Part shown: in pieces, positions 629 to 7,856 of the stretch
Position numbering within the stretch: the stretch's first letter is position 1
Layout of the letters: every line of letters starts with the position of its first letter
Source: Streptomyces sp. GQFP
Lineage (GTDB): Bacteria; Actinomycetota; Actinomycetes; Streptomycetales; Streptomycetaceae
Direction of reading: 5' to 3'
DNA length: 64,000 bases
Assembly: GCF_021545335.1 (NCBI RefSeq)
Contig: NZ_CP089312.1
Span: 6,572,001 to 6,636,000 of the forward strand
The notes under the pieces: model-generated
Seen by the model: the letters and a program-made list of their open reading frames with translations, nothing else
What the model was told of the DNA's origin: nothing
Databases searched by the model: none
Translations under genes and position numbers: made by a program

Positions 629-835
629 TCATTCTTCAAATCTCAGGTCGTTCAATGCCCCTATGAACACCCGCCACGCCTGCCTTCGAACAGCAACTAC
701 GGGCCCTCTGACGCACTTTGAGTCGCGTACGAAGGTGCCGTCTGCCGACCTAACGCACTCAACGCACTCCGTCCCACTTCCCCCGCTGTAAGAGGACTTG
801 AACCACGAAAGAGCGGGCGCGGACGGTGCGGTCAT
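629..835 (-). CDS. DUF397 family small protein
   Basis: This 68-residue protein has the DUF397 pattern: WFKSSYSGGSGTECVECV near the N-terminus, then VRDSKCVRGPVVAV and a terminal segment with W and F. DUF397 proteins are small, often acidic partners of XRE-DUF5753 regulators in actinomycetes, and some behave like toxin/antitoxin-type pairs; no activity can be read here. The ATG at 835-833 shares one base with the TGA stop of the upstream regulator and has AAGGAG five bases before it, so the two are translationally coupled. A GTG three bases further upstream is a less well spaced alternative. The gene converges with the DUF5753 fragment ending at 613. Confidence 0.85.
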   Translation of the reverse strand: MTAPSAPALSWFKSSYSGGSGTECVECVRSADGTFVRDSKCVRGPVVAVRRQAWRVFIGALNDLRFEE

Positions 836-1680
836 CACGTCTCCTTGCTTATACGGGCGATGAGGGCTGCCGAAGACTCAAGGTCGAGCGCCTGTGCGCT
901 CAGGTACTCGAACGCCAACCTATAGCGGTCCAGTTCCTGGGGCTTCTCCATGAAGAGTCCGCCGCCGAGGAGGTCCACGTAGACCACATCCAAGTCGGGC
1001 TGCGGCCCGCGCAAGACGGCGAAGCTGCCAACCGCCGCTGCGTGGGCTCCTGTTGAGAAGGGGAGCACTTGGACGGTGATGTTCGGGCGCTCGCACATGG
1101 TGAGCAGGTGTCGCAACTGTTCGCCCATGACCTCACGCCCCCCGACGCTGCGTCGGACTGCGGCTTCGTCGATCACAGACCAGATGTGCGGCGGCTCCTC
1201 CCGCTCAAGGAGTTCCTGTCGCTTCATGCGGATGTCCACCATGTGCTGCACTTCCCGCTCCGCGCACTGAACCTCCGAGGCCCGGTGAACGGCCTCGGCG
1301 TACTTGCGGGTCTGGAGAAGCCCAGGGATGTACATGCAGGCGTAGTGATCCTCGCGTACGACCTCGTCCTCAAGCGTGAGCATGAGGTTCATGGAGTCGG
1401 GGATGGGGTCGGCGAGTGATCGCCACCAGCCCTGAATCCTGGCCCCCTTGGCGAGTTCGACCAGGGCCAGCCGCTCTTCATCGGTCGCTCCGTATTCGCG
1501 ACAAAGCGCGTCCACGGCCGGCCACTTGACCGTGCCTTCCTTCGTCTCGTAGCGACTCAGCGTTGCCTTGGAGATGCCGACGCGCGCGCCTGCTTCCTCA
1601 AGGGTCAGACTCTTGAGTTCGCGTAGGCGGCGCAGATCCGCGCCCAGTTGGCGCCTTCGCGTGGTGGGTCCAATCGGCAT
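835..1680 (-). CDS. XRE family transcriptional regulator with DUF5753 domain
   Basis: The product has 281 residues. Residues about 10-65 form a helix-turn-helix (LRRLRELKSLTLEEAGARVG then ISKATLSRYE), and the rest is DUF5753, with YIPGLLQTRKYAEAV and PNITVQVLPFSTGA. This architecture is shared with WhiJ-like developmental regulators. The ATG at 1680 is preceded by GAAGGG; an ATG at 1707 and a TTG at 1740 are alternatives. The gene is coupled to the DUF397 gene downstream and is divergent from an RsbW-like ATPase gene. The 200-bp gap between them contains repeated TGAGAGTTCCA boxes that are plausible binding sites for this protein. Confidence 0.88.
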   Translation of the reverse strand: MPIGPTTRRRQLGADLRRLRELKSLTLEEAGARVGISKATLSRYETKEGTVKWPAVDALCREYGATDEERLALVELAKGARIQGWWRSLADPIPDSMNLMLTLEDEVVREDHYACMYIPGLLQTRKYAEAVHRASEVQCAEREVQHMVDIRMKRQELLEREEPPHIWSVIDEAAVRRSVGGREVMGEQLRHLLTMCERPNITVQVLPFSTGAHAAAVGSFAVLRGPQPDLDVVYVDLLGGGLFMEKPQELDRYRLAFEYLSAQALDLESSAALIARISKET

Positions 1681-1787
1681 GCCTACAAGCCCTTCGTGTC
1701 GATCCATCAGATCGTCCTGGTTGCGTGCGCAGGTCGGCAAGGCGGTGTGCGCTGGGGGCGTGAGATTTGGCGGTGCGCTCCTCCTCG

Positions 1788-1819: not shown

Positions 1820-1850
1820 ATGCAACTCTAGGTGCGTGGCCGAGTGCGCT

Positions 1851-1883
1851 GTGCAACTCGGCGGGGGTGAGAAGGAGTTGCAC
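1851..1883 (+). promoter_or_regulatory. Inverted repeat covering the ribosome binding site
   Basis: GTGCAACTC (1851-1859) and GAGTTGCAC (1875-1883) are perfect 9-bp arms with a 15-base loop. The 3' arm directly abuts the ATG at 1884 and includes part of the AAGGAG ribosome binding site (1872-1877). In RNA the hairpin would hide the start. The same GCAACTC heptamer also occurs at 1822-1828, so it could instead be a protein-binding site. Confidence 0.45.
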
Positions 1884-2552
1884 ATGGACTGCACCACCTG
1901 CATGCCAAGGAAGCCCTGGGACCTTCACTTTCTGGCGGAGCCCGAGGAAGTCGCAGGCCTACGGCGCGTACTTCGGATCCATCTCGGGCTCTGGGGCTTG
2001 GACGAGCTCATCGACGCGGCCCAACTCTGCGTCAGCGAACTCGTCTCCAACGTGATCACGCACGTCGGTCCCGGCACCCCCACGACCCTCGCGGTCTCCA
2101 TGAAGGACACCCGCCTTCGGATCGAGGTCTACGACCCCGACACCCGGGCTCTGCCCACGCTCCTCAACCAAGGCGTCAACTCCGAATCCGGACGAGGGAT
2201 GGAGCTCATCACCTGCATCTCTGACCGTTGGGGCGTGCAGCTTCTCGCCGACCGCAAGATGACGTGGTGCGAGCTCTCCACCACGCTGACCTCCCCTAAC
2301 GGCCACCGCGGCGGACCCCGCATCACAAGAGCGGAGGAGGTGCTCGACCTCTACAGCGAGGGGAAGCTGGTGCCCGCGGGCAACTCAGGTCGGCTGGGCG
2401 CAGCCTTGGCGGAAGAGGCAGCAATCGGTGCGATTGCTGACCTCCTCCACTGGCTCCGAGCGCACGGCCGTGATGCCGATGATGCGTTGGATCGTGCGCA
2501 GATGCACTTCGAAGCCGAAGTGGAAGCGGGGGTGGTGGGCGGCTCGGTGTGA
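1884..2552 (+). CDS. RsbW-like ATP-binding protein (HATPase_c_2)
   Basis: This 222-residue protein carries a GHKL-type ATP-binding fold. The N-box is CVSELVSNVITH, the G1-like motif is YDPDTRALP, and the glycine-rich lid is ESGRGMELI. These are the features of anti-sigma-factor kinases of the RsbW/SpoIIAB kind and their many stand-alone relatives in Streptomyces. The last 75 residues are an extra helical tail not needed for the ATPase fold. The start is the ATG after AAGGAG; an upstream ATG at 1836 lacks a ribosome site. Such ATPases often lie beside XRE-DUF5753/DUF397 genes, as here. The partner protein cannot be predicted. Confidence 0.85.
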   Translation: MDCTTCMPRKPWDLHFLAEPEEVAGLRRVLRIHLGLWGLDELIDAAQLCVSELVSNVITHVGPGTPTTLAVSMKDTRLRIEVYDPDTRALPTLLNQGVNSESGRGMELITCISDRWGVQLLADRKMTWCELSTTLTSPNGHRGGPRITRAEEVLDLYSEGKLVPAGNSGRLGAALAEEAAIGAIADLLHWLRAHGRDADDALDRAQMHFEAEVEAGVVGGSV

Positions 2553-2556
2553 AGCG

Positions 2557-5500
2557 CTACCCCGCTTTGATCGTCGAGTACGTCCAGACATCCGCCGGGA
2601 TCTCGTGCTTCAGCATCCACGTGATCGCCATCGGCTTGCTACCCGTGTGCTTCTCGTACTCCGCAGGGCCGAGCAGTATCCACGGCTGGGCACCGCCGAT
2701 GTCGGTGCTCTTGTAGCGGCGTACGAAGAGCAGGACATGGCTTCCCTCAGCGACGTGACGCTGATAGCGAAGGCCAGTGGGGGAGGTCTCGGACGTCTGG
2801 TTCTGGGACTCCCAGTGGAAGAGAGTCTCGCTCTGCGCGTAGTCGTGATACCGGGTCTGCGGTGAGAAGTCCTTCTCGTCCTTCTCCAGCGTGATGAGGA
2901 GAGCATCCGTCTTGATCGAGTCGCACCACTTCACACCCTCGCGGAAATCGGCCGGCATGAAGCCCCCGATGTACGACTGCCCCAGCGCAGGCAGGATCTC
3001 CTCGCGGCTGTACGAGGCGTGCACGGTGAGGGGGACGCCACTCGGACCGCCCAAGCCCAAGAGAGGGATCGGCACGTGCTCGGTGTGAGCGAGGTTGTAC
3101 TCCAGCACCTGGCGCAGCTCACTTCGGAAAGCGTGCTGCTTACGCAGGGTGGCAAATCCGGCGTCGTAGTTTGCGTACCCCTTGCGGACAATGCCGCCGA
3201 GTGGCCACAACTGGAAGAACAGCATGCGGGCGTAGGCCTGTCCCTGCTCATCGAGGGTGCTGTAGGCAGGTGCGTCGTCTTCCAACATCCGCGTGTACGC
3301 AGCAACCCGGACCGGGTCGTCTACGTGTAGGAACGCGGAGACGCGCTTGAGGAGTGAGCTCTCTCCTTCCGGCGCCTCTCCCTTCAGGAGGCCGGAGCGG
3401 CGGAGTAGACCCGTCCAAGAGTTCCCGTTGCCCCGGTAGAGCTCCTTGAGCTCGCGTCCGCTCTCGTCCAGGTATTGGCTGAGCTTCAGTTCGGCGTAGT
3501 CCGCCACCTCGCGGGCCAGGGCAGTGACGTTGACGCCGATCTGGTCCTTGATGTTGGCGATGATGGTTTTCTTGGCCTTCTCCTCAAGGAGGATCTCGCA
3601 GCCGGACGGGAGTTGCGGGAAGTCATGCTCGATGTTGTCCAAGAGCCGCTTGCGGGTCAGATTCGTCAGAGCGCGGAACTGGTTCTCGAAGCGGAACTCC
3701 TTACGGTGCTGCCCGATGAAGTCGAGCACGGTCAGCACCGCCTTGTTCTCGGTACGCCGGAGCCCTCGGCCGAGCTGCTGCAAGAACACAGTTGAGCTGG
3801 ACGTGGGGCGCAGCAGGAGTAGGGTGTCTACGTCAGGGATGTCGAGGCCCTCGTTGAAGAGGTCGACCGAGAAGATCACCTGCAACGCCCCGGACTTGAG
3901 GTCATCCAGCGCCTGCTTGCGCTCATCGGCAGGGGTTCCGCCAGACAGGGCAACGGCGTTGAGGCCGGCCTTGCGGAAGGACTCCGCCATGAAGTGCGCG
4001 TGCTCGACAGAAACGCAGAAGCCCAAGGCGCGCATGGCACTTGGATCGGCCACCTTCTCCTCAACGGCCTTCAAGACCAACAGCGCCCGCGCATGATTGG
4101 CGGACAGCACCTCACTCAGCGCGCTTGCGTCGTACGCCCCGCGATGCCACTTCACCGCGCTCAGATCGGTGTTGTCGCTGATACCGAGGTAGTGGAAGGG
4201 GCTCAGTAGGTCGTTCTCCAAGGCTTCCCACAGCCGCATCTCGGCAGCGATGCGCCCATCGAAGAACTCGTCCTGGATGTTCTTACCGTTCATGCGCTCG
4301 GGAGTCGCGGTCAGTCCGAGCAGTTCCAGCGGCTCGAAGTGATCGAGGATCTTTCGGTACGTCGGTGAAGTCCCGTGGTGGAACTCATCGATCACGATCA
4401 CATCGAAGTGATCAGCAGCGACGCGCTCCAGCGTGCGCGCGTTCAGTGACTGCACGCTGGCGAAGACATGCGTCCAGCGCTCAGGGATCTCTCCGCTGTG
4501 CAGGGACTCGCCGAAGTTCGCGTCTACCAAGACGTCTTGGTAGGTCCGCAGGGACTGCTGGAGGATCTCCTTGCGGTGAGCGACGAACAGCAGCCGTAGG
4601 TCGCGCCCGTGCTTCTTCCGCAATTGCTTGTAGTCCAGCGCTGCCATCACAGTCTTGCCGGTGCCCGTCGCCGCAACCAGCAGGTTCTGATGCCGGTCAT
4701 GCACCTCCCGCTCGACTTCGAGGCGCTCCAGCATGTCGCGCTGGTGCGGATAGGGGCGTACTTCGAGGCCGGACAAGGTGATTCTGCGATCCGCAGCGGA
4801 GGTAGCGGAGGAGCCTCCAGCGATCGCCAACGCTTCCTGGAGCCGAGCCCCGTCGGCATCGGGGTCGTACAACTCGAAGGACGGATCACTCCAGTACGCC
4901 TCGAAGGTCGCGTCGAACTTGCGCAGTACGTCAGGCGTGGCGATGGACGACAGCCGGACGTTCCACTCCAAGCCATCGAGCAGCGCGGCCTTGGAGAGGT
5001 TGGAGCTGCCGACGTACGCGGTGTCGTAACCACTGTTCCGACGGAACAACCATGCCTTGGCGTGGAGTCGCGTCGACCGCGTCTCGTAGCTGACCTTGAC
5101 CTCGGCGTTGAAGTCCTGCACCAGTCGATCCAGCGCGCGCCGCTCGGTCGCCCCGATGTAGGTCGTCGTGATGACGCGTATCGGCACGCCTCGGTCACGA
5201 GCGGCTTGGAGCGACTGCTCGATGATGCGCAGGCCGTGCCACTTCACAAAGGCGCAGAGCAGGTCGACGCGATCAGCGGTGGCGAGCTCGGCTCGCAACT
5301 CGAAGCCGAGGCTGGGGTCATCGGGTGAGTTGGTGATGAGCGCGGTGTCGGAGAGCGGGATGCCTGGGCGTACAGCGAAGACGCCGGGGGCCTCTTGCCT
5401 TGTCAGCGCCAGGAGTTGGCGTGGTCCCTCTGCCACCAATTCCACCCACTCCAGCGCTCCCTCAAGAGTGCTGATGGAGTCCAAGATGTGGTTCGTCGCG

Positions 5501-5718
5501 TATACCCGCTCCTCGGCGGGGATGTTCTGCAGTACGCGGCGCACCGTCCGGGCGATGTGTCTTGACAGGACATAGGGAACGGACTCGTCTCCCACTGTGT
5601 CGCTCACGGGACGCCACCCGAGGCTCGCGAACTCCTTCAGCTTCTGCTCGAAGCGCACCGTGATGAGCTCCTCGTACAGACCCACGGCAGGCTGCGCGAA
5701 ATCCCCCGACTCAGACAC
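2557..5718 (-). CDS. PLD-like nuclease/helicase with DUF3427 C-terminus
   Basis: The product is a 1053-residue three-part protein. Residues about 135-285 form a phospholipase D-like domain with H219-A-K221 and GSSNLS at 237-242. Residues about 320-660 form a superfamily 2 helicase: ATGTGKT at 350-356, IDEFHH around 443-448, TATPER at 470-475 and QQLGRGLRR at 647-655. The remainder, ending near residue 1050, corresponds to DUF3427. This architecture is known among DNA-repair or phage-defence-associated helicases, and the PLD part may cut DNA or only bind it. The stop lies four bases from the convergent ATPase stop. The gene is divergent from a DUF6602 gene, and with the nuclease at 6741-7856 it suggests a defence island. 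Confidence 0.9.
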   Translation of the reverse strand: MSESGDFAQPAVGLYEELITVRFEQKLKEFASLGWRPVSDTVGDESVPYVLSRHIARTVRRVLQNIPAEERVYATNHILDSISTLEGALEWVELVAEGPRQLLALTRQEAPGVFAVRPGIPLSDTALITNSPDDPSLGFELRAELATADRVDLLCAFVKWHGLRIIEQSLQAARDRGVPIRVITTTYIGATERRALDRLVQDFNAEVKVSYETRSTRLHAKAWLFRRNSGYDTAYVGSSNLSKAALLDGLEWNVRLSSIATPDVLRKFDATFEAYWSDPSFELYDPDADGARLQEALAIAGGSSATSAADRRITLSGLEVRPYPHQRDMLERLEVEREVHDRHQNLLVAATGTGKTVMAALDYKQLRKKHGRDLRLLFVAHRKEILQQSLRTYQDVLVDANFGESLHSGEIPERWTHVFASVQSLNARTLERVAADHFDVIVIDEFHHGTSPTYRKILDHFEPLELLGLTATPERMNGKNIQDEFFDGRIAAEMRLWEALENDLLSPFHYLGISDNTDLSAVKWHRGAYDASALSEVLSANHARALLVLKAVEEKVADPSAMRALGFCVSVEHAHFMAESFRKAGLNAVALSGGTPADERKQALDDLKSGALQVIFSVDLFNEGLDIPDVDTLLLLRPTSSSTVFLQQLGRGLRRTENKAVLTVLDFIGQHRKEFRFENQFRALTNLTRKRLLDNIEHDFPQLPSGCEILLEEKAKKTIIANIKDQIGVNVTALAREVADYAELKLSQYLDESGRELKELYRGNGNSWTGLLRRSGLLKGEAPEGESSLLKRVSAFLHVDDPVRVAAYTRMLEDDAPAYSTLDEQGQAYARMLFFQLWPLGGIVRKGYANYDAGFATLRKQHAFRSELRQVLEYNLAHTEHVPIPLLGLGGPSGVPLTVHASYSREEILPALGQSYIGGFMPADFREGVKWCDSIKTDALLITLEKDEKDFSPQTRYHDYAQSETLFHWESQNQTSETSPTGLRYQRHVAEGSHVLLFVRRYKSTDIGGAQPWILLGPAEYEKHTGSKPMAITWMLKHEIPADVWTYSTIKAG

Positions 5719-5865
5719 TCTGGCTCCCTTGATCGCTCATCAACTGTGCTCATGTGTAACAGAGGGCACTGACAGTGCGCAGGCGATGGCCGCCTGCCGG
5801 ATCGGGAGAGCGCGACTTGTCTGCCATAGCTGCAGCGGCTTGTTGCACTGCCCTAGAGTTGTTTC

Positions 5866-6711
5866 ATGCCTCAAGAGAAACTTGGAAGAATCCTCAGCTC
5901 AGTTGCCATGCGGATGCGTGCAGACTTCGAGCAGTCAAGAAACTTCAGTCACAACGGCGAAGCGGGAACTTCTAGAGAAGCTCTTGTTCGCGAGTTTCTC
6001 GCTAGCTATCTACCATCCCATGTGGAAACGATACATAATGCCGAGATCGTCACGGCTTCAGGTGAAACATCTCCCCAGTGTGACATCGTTCTCGCGGATC
6101 GAGGAACTCCGCCTTTTACAACCCTGAACGGGTATCGGATCCTTCCGAACGAGTGCGTTTATGGTGTTGTCGAAGTGAAGACCAAACTGGATAAGGAGAA
6201 GCTCTTGGATGCTTGCGGCAAGATTAGTAAGCTGCGGCGCATGTCGAAGGATTCGTATCGCCCGACGCCCGGACTTGTACCGCGAAAGACATCGGCTTAC
6301 GGGAAAACCTACGACTTCTTCCCAACTTCTGGAATCGTCATTGCTTTTGATGGTCTCAAGCTAGAGACCATCGGTAATCATCTTATGGAATGGTGTCAAA
6401 GTCGGCCGCCAGTCGAGTGGCCTGATAGCGTGTGGGTGCTAGGTAAGGGTCACCTGCAATGGCAGAATCCTCGTAGTCACCTTCTTGAGCGCTCACCCGA
6501 GCCGGGGTCTCTATTGGTGCAAATAGATACAGATGTATCTCAGGATATTCTATTAGCTCTCGCGTTGCACTTGAACATTCACTTCTCTGACGCGTGGATG
6601 AATCCTCTAGACCTCGTACCGTATGCGGGAGCCACTCGGCTTGGTGTCATTTCACGTCGATGGCGTATGACTCCCGCAGGCCAGCCACTCAAGATGCTGG
6701 AAGGTCCGTGA
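5866..6711 (+). CDS. DUF6602 family protein, probable PD-(D/E)XK-type nuclease fold
   Basis: This 281-residue protein matches what I know of DUF6602. It has GEAGTSREALVREFL at 31-45, CDIVLADRG at 72-80 and YGVVEVKTKLDKE at 99-111. Asp73, Glu103 and Lys105 are arranged as in PD-(D/E)XK nuclease folds, which fits the general picture of DUF6602 but is not proof of activity. The gene uses many A/T-ending codons (for example around 6520-6570), unlike its neighbours, which suggests recent transfer. It sits between the large helicase gene (divergent) and an SRA/PD-(D/E)XK gene (convergent). A role in DNA restriction or immunity is inferred from this setting. Confidence 0.7.
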   Translation: MPQEKLGRILSSVAMRMRADFEQSRNFSHNGEAGTSREALVREFLASYLPSHVETIHNAEIVTASGETSPQCDIVLADRGTPPFTTLNGYRILPNECVYGVVEVKTKLDKEKLLDACGKISKLRRMSKDSYRPTPGLVPRKTSAYGKTYDFFPTSGIVIAFDGLKLETIGNHLMEWCQSRPPVEWPDSVWVLGKGHLQWQNPRSHLLERSPEPGSLLVQIDTDVSQDILLALALHLNIHFSDAWMNPLDLVPYAGATRLGVISRRWRMTPAGQPLKMLEGP

Positions 6712-6740
6712 GGGAGAAGGGATTAAGGATGTTCAAGGAT

Positions 6741-7856
6741 CTATTCAAGTGGTACTGATTCTCCGATGAAGCTGCCATTTTCCGATCTGTAAACTATTTC
6801 CACCCCGTATGATTCGCACAGGTCAAACATGTCTAGGTCGGGCTTCGCGGGGAGAAGGATGACGCGCTTGGGCGGCTCGGGATGGTCCTCGGTTCGCACG
6901 TAGCGGCTGTAGTCCAGAATTTGGCCTAGGGCCATCCTTACTTCCTCGCGTGCGCTAGAACCCTTAGCTTCGTAGAGTACATGTTCCGTTGCGTCATAGA
7001 GGTCTGTCTTTAGGGTGGATGTGAGGCCCTTGACTTTAATTTGGAAGGCGCCAGTTTTGCGCCCGACGGCTTTGAGATAGGCCATGTAGGTACTGGTCAA
7101 CTCGGCTTCATGACGCACGGCGATGTAGGCTGCGGCTGACGAGCGGAGACTCATCTTCTTGTTAAATTTCTCTGATGCGACGAACGTGCCGCTGGTGGCG
7201 GCATTCGCTGCAGCTTTTCGTAGAGAGCTCGCCTTTTTCCTGCGCTTGCTGGGACCTTCCAGTGCGCCGGTAGTCGCAGGGTCAGTGTGAAGATTGGCCG
7301 TTGTAACTACCTCGAAGGGGACAAGTTCCCACGTGGTCTCTGTCGCGGCTGGGATCAAGTTCTTTGATGACTTTTGGAATTCTCCATCCGGTCGAAGGCG
7401 AAAAACAATTACATTGCGCTCCTTGCGGTCCTCGCCGTGCACTCTGCGCCATACGTAAGGTTCCAGCGCATCCAGAGTGAATTCCCCGATGTATTCATGA
7501 GTCTTGGTGCCACTATTGGGCATAAAGCCGACCTGAGTGAATACTCGTAGCGTGCGGTCCTGTTCAGCGTGGCGGAGGATGGCTCGGTTGCCCGAGCCTG
7601 CGGCTCCGGCGAACGTCTGATTGCCGGACTTCCCTGCCCCTGTGTACTCGAAAATGGGCCCCAGTTCGTCTTCCTCAGCCAGCCAACCGTCGTAATATCC
7701 ATTGACTTCTCCGACGGTGGGGTCCGAATAGAGGTTGACGCTCCGCTTTTCAACGGAGGAGCATATGCCGCCCTGCCCGCTTCCTCCGAATACCTTCCTG
7801 ATCTCCGCTCGTGTGCGTATGTCGCCGGAAACGATCGTGTCAGTCCTCGTCGTCAT
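6741..7856 (-). CDS. SRA-like/PD-(D/E)XK fusion, probable modification-dependent endonuclease
   Basis: The product has 371 residues. The N-terminal half (about 35-155) resembles the SRA-like (YDG) domain of ScoMcrA-type enzymes: SVNLYSDPTVGEVNGYYDGW, then an FEYTGAGKSGNQ stretch and AILRHAEQDRTLRVF. The C-terminal half (about 240-345) looks like a PD-(D/E)XK nuclease. It has an upstream acidic helix RHEAEL, Asp285 or Asp288 in KTDLYDATEH, Glu296-Ala-Lys298, then Gln312 in ALGQILDYSRYV. SRA domains flip out modified cytosines in McrBC, MspJI and ScoMcrA relatives, so this protein would be expected to cut modified DNA. It ends 30 bases from the convergent DUF6602 gene. An alternative reading is an inactive DNA-binding relative; the catalytic triad appears complete. 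Confidence 0.72.
   Translation of the reverse strand: MTTRTDTIVSGDIRTRAEIRKVFGGSGQGGICSSVEKRSVNLYSDPTVGEVNGYYDGWLAEEDELGPIFEYTGAGKSGNQTFAGAAGSGNRAILRHAEQDRTLRVFTQVGFMPNSGTKTHEYIGEFTLDALEPYVWRRVHGEDRKERNVIVFRLRPDGEFQKSSKNLIPAATETTWELVPFEVVTTANLHTDPATTGALEGPSKRRKKASSLRKAAANAATSGTFVASEKFNKKMSLRSSAAAYIAVRHEAELTSTYMAYLKAVGRKTGAFQIKVKGLTSTLKTDLYDATEHVLYEAKGSSAREEVRMALGQILDYSRYVRTEDHPEPPKRVILLPAKPDLDMFDLCESYGVEIVYRSENGSFIGESVPLE

Follow-up and report, generated by a model that had tools for sequence, protein, structure and literature searches.

Streptomyces restricts methylated DNA strongly, and this hampers its genetics. Three adjacent genes that all appear to act on DNA, in a 64,000-nucleotide stretch of Streptomyces sp. 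GQFP (single 8.31-Mb contig NZ_CP089312.1, positions 6,572,001–6,636,000; the whole stretch is called the window below), raise the question of whether they form one defence system, and of what kind. A first-pass annotation of the sequence had put the trio forward as a candidate module, and the three open reading frames (ORFs) were found at the coordinates that it gave. Our comparisons of sequences and structure models suggest, with moderate confidence, a layered island for DNA restriction that is triggered by modification and composed of a SauUSI-type restriction enzyme (P0001) and a convergent cassette of a NucC-fold nuclease (P0002) and a nuclease with an SRA reader domain (P0003). The features of the locus, in window coordinates, are:

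2557–5718, reverse strand: SauUSI-like type IV restriction gene (P0001), 1053 aa, GTG start; PLD nuclease, SF2 ATPase, coupler and SRA-type DUF3427 reader
2578–3174, reverse strand: DUF3427 region of P0001, residues 849–1047 (Pfam PF11907, E 3.6e-21), where SauUSI has its SRA-fold target-recognition domain
5719–5865: divergent interval between the SauUSI-like and NucC-like genes, 147 bp, from ORF coordinates
5866–6711, forward strand: predicted NucC-like (DUF6602) PD-(D/E)XK nuclease gene (P0002), 281 aa
6082–6084, 6172–6174 and 6178–6180, forward strand: predicted catalytic codons D73, E103 and K105 of P0002, read from the sequence
6712–6740: interval between the convergent stop codons of P0002 and P0003, 29 bp, from ORF coordinates
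6741–7856, reverse strand: predicted SRA/PD-(D/E)XK nuclease gene (P0003), 371 aa
7362–7844, reverse strand: SRA domain of P0003, residues 5–165, with YDG and YTG motifs, from structure and family profile
6744–7145, reverse strand: PD-(D/E)XK domain of P0003, residues 238–371, with D285 and E296-A-K298, from fold matches

A convergent gene pair as the recurring unit

All three ORFs are intact, and their order is divergent, then convergent, as the first-pass annotation had described; the locus is a variable island and not core. The trio itself did not survive the comparison with other genomes. Among 392 genomes of the genus, four (G000, G180, G311 and G336) have the three genes side by side, whereas P0002 (at least 69% identity) is found in six genomes and P0003 (at least 63%) in the same six, always adjacent and never apart. 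A seventh genome, G358, contains decayed pieces of both genes. In all 16 pairs examined (a count that leaves out the G358 remnants and takes G336, which is the contig of L047, once) the two genes are convergent with stop codons 15–76 bp apart. These pairs are spread over Streptomyces, Kitasatospora and Actinacidiphila and have different flanks. A SauUSI-like gene adjoins only 7 of the 16 (in L048 the match reaches residue 735 only), and SauUSI-like genes (E ≤ 1e-150) are found in 115 of the 392 genomes. We therefore rejected the trio as a single module. What recurs is the convergent pair P0002/P0003, with the SauUSI-like gene as an optional neighbour.

Relatives of P0002 in named genomes were taken from the best 80 of 205 candidates, which were found through one peptide pattern. 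Named Streptomyces relatives carry P0002 at 89–92% identity. Among the 14 close relatives, the 11 with at least 67.6% identity are each followed immediately by a convergent relative of P0003. The other three (42–57%) include L058 and L060, both lacking a downstream P0003 relative, and L059, whose contig ends about 500 bases downstream so that absence of the SRA nuclease could not be judged. The same three-gene island is present in Streptomyces turgidiscabies Car8 (L049), which belongs to a scab-causing species.

The ratio of nonsynonymous to synonymous substitution rates (dN/dS) against the window was 0.05–0.08 for P0002 and 0.09–0.15 for P0003 over five relatives, and 0.06–0.10 for P0001 over six; dS was saturated for two further relatives. 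Intact ORFs together with dN/dS values of 0.05–0.15 indicate that the locus is more than a product of chance. The GC content is 0.52 and 0.56 for the small genes P0002 and P0003 and about 0.63 for the SauUSI-like gene. The AT-rich dip that had been noted for the middle gene is thus real, but it covers both small genes.

Genes near other pairs include Vsr, GmrSD_N, cytosine C5-methylase and AlbA_2. The C5-methylase gene is divergent from the NucC-like gene at three loci (L052:6819-7865, L055:6862-7847 and L198:10116-11213). On the Kitasatospora contigs L050 and L051 a tRNA-Thr gene is followed by the pair, an integrase and a 453-aa ORF, in that order. Two of 80 neighbour proteins match RepSA of pSAM2, and we take these to be the 453-aa ORFs of L050 and L051. 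Here the pair looks like the cargo of an integrative element. More generally, the pair looks to be carried by mobile elements in some genomes, and in one lineage it lies beside the SauUSI-like gene.

Two predicted nucleases

P0002 contains the Pfam domain DUF6602 (E 1.4e-27). The first-pass annotation had rightly regarded the protein as DNA-acting and had pointed to D73, E103 and K105, but had missed its homology to NucC. NucC structures in the PDB are found with the single P0002 sequence (E 8e-13 to 3e-7), and an AlphaFold2 (AF2) model (pLDDT 85, pTM 0.87) matches NucC with Z 23.0 (2.8 Å over 216 residues). The next fold family, represented by the type II enzyme NgoMIV (Z 9.8), is 13 units lower, and is followed by the type II enzymes SgrAI (Z 9.6) and Bse634I (Z 9.2). 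PADLOC scores P0002 merely as a NucC-like nuclease. The homology is further supported by a plasmid record in which the oligonucleotide cyclase of a cyclic-oligonucleotide-based antiphage signalling system (CBASS) is annotated beside a gene labelled 'DUF6602'.

The nucleotide-binding pocket was compared in an alignment of 56 rows, with L061 and L006 excluded from both clades and the E. coli numbering counted on the alignment. D73, E103 and K105 fall on the catalytic positions that are invariant in canonical NucC, and D, E and K are kept in all 16 rows of the P0002 clade as well as in all 38 canonical rows. The situation is different at R53, Y81 and T226 of E. coli NucC, which we take to be the contacts of cyclic tri-adenylate (cA3). 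These positions are R, Y and T in 38/38 canonical-looking rows but H, deleted and W in 16/16 rows of the P0002 clade. The fold and the D/ExK site of NucC are thus present, and the cA3 pocket is not, since none of the 16 rows keeps any contact residue. Two remoter plasmid copies (38–40% identical to P0002) likewise lack the three residues. By alignment and model, P0002 is predicted to be a NucC homologue without the usual cA3-contact pocket.

The surroundings point in the same direction. Canonical nucC genes had 14 cyclases and 13 TRIP13 proteins among 52 neighbour proteins at 18 loci (52 of 144 neighbour ORFs used). At 14 P0002-clade loci, 80 neighbour proteins (80 of 172 ORFs used) gave matches to 87 families, and the 25 commonest of these included no cyclase, although single matches are possible; neither this search nor a cyclase profile revealed a cyclase/TRIP13 operon at the loci of the clade. 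The profile was built because the Pfam family SMODS is a weak probe, matching 11 of 20 genomes with remoter, canonical-looking nucC; its four positive controls are part of the profile by construction. It found a nucC-operon-type cyclase in none of 13 pair genomes. Cas10 (PF22335) was found in none of 16 pair genomes, and no SMODS match was found in the window genome. With the contacts replaced, and with neither a nucC-type cyclase nor Cas10 found in the 13 and 16 pair genomes searched, P0002 was rejected as a CBASS or CRISPR effector.

At L060 and L152:8713-16981, a NucC-like DUF6602 protein (42–44% identity) has a CHAT protein and a trypsin-like/AAA_16 protein in its neighbourhood. These possibly represent another trigger for this NucC lineage, which is without the cA3 contacts.

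P0003 alone had no Pfam, NCBIfam or PADLOC match at E 1 in a single-sequence search, and its identification relies on structure and family profile. In the AF2 model (pLDDT 75, with residues 183–246 below 50), residues 5–165 match the SRA domains of SUVH5 (Z 12.5), ScoMcrA (12.2), AspBHI and LpnPI (both 11.1) and TagI (10.8), and the SauUSI chain 7clg_B aligns through its residues 694–952 with Z 10.3. The C-terminus matches the PD-(D/E)XK proteins Cdn1 (Z 10.0), VC1899 (Z 9.8) and EndoMS (Z 8.9). Foldseek ranked AspBHI first (E 7.7e-8) and MspJI second (E 3.6e-7), with a whole-chain template-modelling (TM) score of just 0.27–0.28 because the domain arrangement differs. MspJI and AspBHI resemble P0003 by fold and were not among the matches of the P0003-family profile at E 1. 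The profile did match the SRA domain of ScoMcrA (E 2.6e-6), and Pfam SAD_SRA was found in 8 of 35 family members, P0003 itself not being one of them. A PHROG match (phrog_15103, E 2.5e-19) is of unknown function. UPF3A, the best PDB match of the single sequence (E 0.0035), was judged spurious, as the structure and profile searches lend it no support.

P0003 thus combines an SRA domain with YDG and YTG motifs and a complete nuclease site, as seen for SRA modification-dependent endonucleases, and D285, E296 and K298 are kept in all 16 pair members. We conclude that P0003 is a predicted SRA/PD-(D/E)XK nuclease, in line with the earlier suggestion of an SRA reader nuclease. Relatives with intact E and K were also found in viral contigs or prophage-like regions (L132–L139, L226 and L227; assigned by eye from neighbouring ORFs near head genes), and a more distant relative is gp63 of Gordonia phage Sidious.

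The SauUSI-like enzyme and its neighbours

The PLD, SF2 helicase and DUF3427 parts that had been read from the P0001 sequence are all supported by Pfam (PLDc_2, ResIII, Helicase_C and DUF3427). The PADLOC model mREase_IV PDLC03659 matches P0001 with 1484.6 bits over profile positions 1–940 of 945, and the PDB match is 7clg (E 2.8e-75). The ATPase motifs are intact (Walker A ATGTGKT at residue 350, DEFH at 444 and motif VI at 647). With PLD, SF2 ATPase and an SRA-type reader united in a single polypeptide (about 950–1050 aa in this class), P0001 is by its sequence a SauUSI-type type IV restriction enzyme, and by itself a known kind of system. We take Sco2863 to belong to the SauUSI family, and the orthologue in S. 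coelicolor is probably ScoA3I/Sco2863. Sco2863 is listed in the table of a review as restricting m5C in vivo (PMC3874153). The C-terminal target-recognition domain of SauUSI is described as having an SRA fold (PMC7913695), and DUF3427 is predicted to bind modified DNA (eLife, PMC7159879).

The slot that the pair occupies beside the SauUSI-like gene can be filled differently. In G033 the SauUSI-like gene is 87–88% identical, and an MrcB_N-domain gene (L146:9526-10641) takes the divergent position instead of the pair. The nucleotide homology between G033 and the window breaks off at position 5682 of the window, only a short way into the 5' end of the SauUSI-like gene. This divergent slot is perhaps a hot spot for reader and nuclease genes.

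Relatives of P0003 (E ≤ 1e-20) occur in 39 of the 392 genomes. We placed 60 family members in context, drawn from the pairs, from 38 of the 39 genomes and from viral contigs, with the G358 remnant dropped. Fourteen of them are paralogues located downstream of a SauUSI-like gene on the same strand, 58–2661 bp away and, in the G009-type arrangement, 61 bp away (two of these SauUSI neighbours, in G464 and G348, are partial or broken):

L148, L149, L150, L199–L202, L204, L206, L210–L213 and L222, downstream of SauUSI-like genes: SRA paralogues with a dead nuclease, candidate reader subunits

The catalytic lysine is lost in 14/14 of these proteins and the glutamate too in 7/14. By contrast, 44 other family members keep E and K: 16 belong to pairs, 27 have no SauUSI within the stretch that was fetched, and one, L217, is separated by 163 bp from a SauUSI gene on the other strand. 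Two more dead SRA proteins (L203 and L225) are encoded close to the ends of their contigs, and the SauUSI match of either genome likewise reaches a contig end; neither protein is part of the 14/14 count. All 16 dead proteins keep the SRA signature Y54, D56, G57, Y71, T72, G73 and N90. Their dN/dS was 0.09–0.27 for both domains over eight chosen pairs, with one C-terminal value saturated. The dead proteins form two clades, and a constraint to a single group, defined after the tree had been seen, was rejected (p of the approximately unbiased test 0.0012). With just 1–2 pairs available, an independent-pairs test for a link between a dead nuclease and SauUSI had no power. The tree suggests two or more independent losses of the nuclease, giving reader-only partners of SauUSI.

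Two genes on the other side of the SauUSI-like gene had been described as a developmental-type regulator set:

835–1740, reverse strand: XRE/DUF5753 regulator gene, from Pfam; linked with SauUSI-like genes
1836–2552, forward strand: HATPase_c_2 gene, from Pfam; convergent with the SauUSI-like gene and linked with SauUSI-like genes

Both recur beside SauUSI-like genes. XRE-DUF5753 relatives were found at 16 of 22 SauUSI loci with long flanks and at 0 of 28 loci without SauUSI (Fisher p 1.5e-8, relatedness ignored), and HATPase relatives at 16 of 22 and 1 of 28, respectively (p 2e-7, relatedness likewise ignored). L048 was excluded from the 22 loci as its contig ends just past SauUSI. At 19 further SauUSI loci with a flank of 1.5 kb, XRE-DUF5753 relatives were found in 6 and HATPase relatives in 7. 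This suggests that the XRE-DUF5753 and HATPase_c_2 genes provide dedicated regulation of SauUSI-like genes.

Possible mechanism, alternatives and known systems

In a restriction island of the kind proposed here, the SRA nuclease would flip and read a modified cytosine, which could be 5-methylcytosine (5mC), 5-hydroxymethylcytosine or a phage hypermodification, and would cut the incoming DNA. SauUSI and the SRA nuclease might respond to different sets or contexts of modified sites. The NucC-like protein would be a second, normally silent nuclease that is released by an SRA-nuclease event, with a partner protein, DNA ends or another ligand acting instead of cA3, and might then finish the invader or kill the cell. 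Given how strictly the pair co-occurs, the simplest idea is that the SRA nuclease activates the NucC-like protein.

A number of points weigh against this proposal. That the SRA nuclease switches on its NucC-like neighbour is a guess. Convergent genes are not co-transcribed, and a complex is thus not implied. In Streptomyces roseolus (L052) an intact C5-methylase gene lies beside an intact pair, which means that the SRA nuclease cannot cut every 5mC context. SMODS matches are present in 3 of 13 pair genomes. Of the three unpaired members of the P0002 clade, L058 and L059 come from genomes with SMODS matches, and the genome of L059, which is from Jiangella, has a nucC-operon-type cyclase on another contig (E 6.6e-101). 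Finally, no second att copy (a repeat of the tRNA-Thr end) was found within the fetched stretches of L050 and L051.

One alternative is a derived restriction-modification set, in which the NucC-like protein would be a sequence-specific enzyme, the host would be protected by the C5-methylase, and the SRA nuclease would guard against phages that copy the modification. The divergent C5-methylase genes fit this idea: the gene of L052 is open (348 aa) and that of L055 is split by a frame change, while in L198 the methylase is open over 366 codons and both nucleases have decayed, as expected if the restriction enzyme was lost first. Vsr genes near the L052 and L054 pairs and the type II enzymes that follow NucC among the folds nearest to P0002 are also in its favour. 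We nevertheless consider it unlikely. A C5-methylase is near only 2 of the 16 intact pair loci (mostly with 7–9 kb fetched on each side) and none is in the window; the C5-methylase of the window genome is encoded at a distance of about 0.63 Mb. The dedicated methyltransferase expected beside a type II nuclease is therefore not a feature of the pair, as far as C5-methylases, the one type sought, are concerned. Four of 13 pair genomes (drafts) have no C5-methylase match at all, in a search that did not extend to adenine and N4-methylcytosine methylases, and this makes constitutive, unprotected activity of P0002 unlikely.

The pair might also be a toxin and its keeper, one nuclease being toxic and restrained by its partner, with defence as a secondary role. 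Such genes would be inseparable, and their presence in the same six of 392 genomes, their fixed convergent order and their joint decay in G358 are what one would expect. Against this, the catalytic sites of both P0002 and P0003 are complete, relatives of the SRA nuclease stand alone in viral contigs and chromosomes, and remoter NucC-like relatives occur without an SRA nuclease (L058, L060 and two plasmid stretches). We give this explanation a rather low probability.

An equally low probability is assigned to the genes being defence-island neighbours only, that is, independent nucleases gathered by mobile elements without a functional link. Their orientation implies separate promoters, SauUSI is optional, and an MrcB_N gene fills the slot in G033, so for the SauUSI-like gene this reading may well be true. 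It fits the small genes badly, since order and spacing are the same in 16/16 pairs from three genera with different flanks and the two genes are never separated in 392 genomes. Very improbable, lastly, is that P0002 acts as a regular effector of CBASS or type III CRISPR and receives its cA3 from a cyclase encoded at another place in the genome. The NucC fold, the intact active site and the SMODS and Jiangella cyclase matches could be cited in favour; against it stand the 16/16 replaced contacts, the absence of the nucC-operon-type cyclase and of Cas10 from the 13 and 16 pair genomes searched, and the window genome without SMODS.

The restriction-island proposal can be taken further, to a joint reading that we hold possible rather than probable: a NucC lineage outside cyclic-nucleotide signalling would be coupled to a modified-base reader nuclease, and SauUSI would in addition have recruited nuclease-dead SRA readers. 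In its first part, a compact two-gene module would sense phage DNA modification directly and trigger NucC-type DNA destruction. In its second part, a single-chain type IV enzyme would have been turned into a multi-reader system. If true, NucC nucleases work outside cyclic-nucleotide immunity, a modified-base reader can be wired directly to a NucC-type effector, and type IV restriction enzymes, usually regarded as single enzymes, gain partner subunits.

The first-pass annotation had not recognised the combination as a named system. This was right in so far as the combination was not found in the libraries and literature searched, but the helicase gene alone is of a known type, PADLOC mREase_IV. 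Of the other two proteins, P0002 is scored by PADLOC as NucC-like alone and P0003 is without a match, and the pair is thus not catalogued as such and looks like an uncatalogued defence unit. The term 'DUF6602' was not found in the literature searched, which excluded subscription papers, and no such system was seen in literature on NucC in Streptomyces or orphan NucC, on SauUSI in Streptomyces or with accessory SRA, or on inactive SRA proteins. As subscription literature was outside the search, novelty is provisional. No such partner of SauUSI was seen in the passages on SauUSI that were covered. In Streptococcus, SauUSI homologues with MutT-like genes beside them belong to the variable gene set that adjoins genes for EVE-domain readers of modified bases (PMC7641849, Fig. 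9), and this provides a precedent for a reader gene in the neighbourhood of SauUSI.

Compared with the known systems, P0001 shares with SauUSI the domain order (PLD, SF2 ATPase, SRA-type DUF3427) and the near full-length PADLOC match. Unlike SauUSI, the genes of this genus are linked with the XRE-DUF5753/HATPase set and, in some genomes, with dead SRA paralogues or the pair. P0002 resembles NucC, an effector of CBASS and type III CRISPR, in its fold and D/E/K active site, but its cA3 contacts are replaced, no cyclase/TRIP13 operon was seen, and its partner is an SRA nuclease. ScoMcrA and the other SRA-HNH enzymes are encoded by a single gene. P0003 has the SRA domain in common with ScoMcrA, TagI and Sco5333, as seen in the family profile for ScoMcrA and in the fold for TagI, whereas these enzymes are described as having an HNH nuclease instead of PD-(D/E)XK. 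An N-terminal SRA domain and a C-terminal PD-(D/E)XK domain are seen for both P0003 and the MspJI/AspBHI/LpnPI enzymes. P0003 differs from these in that the profile search at E 1 did not connect them, and in its strictly linked NucC-like partner.

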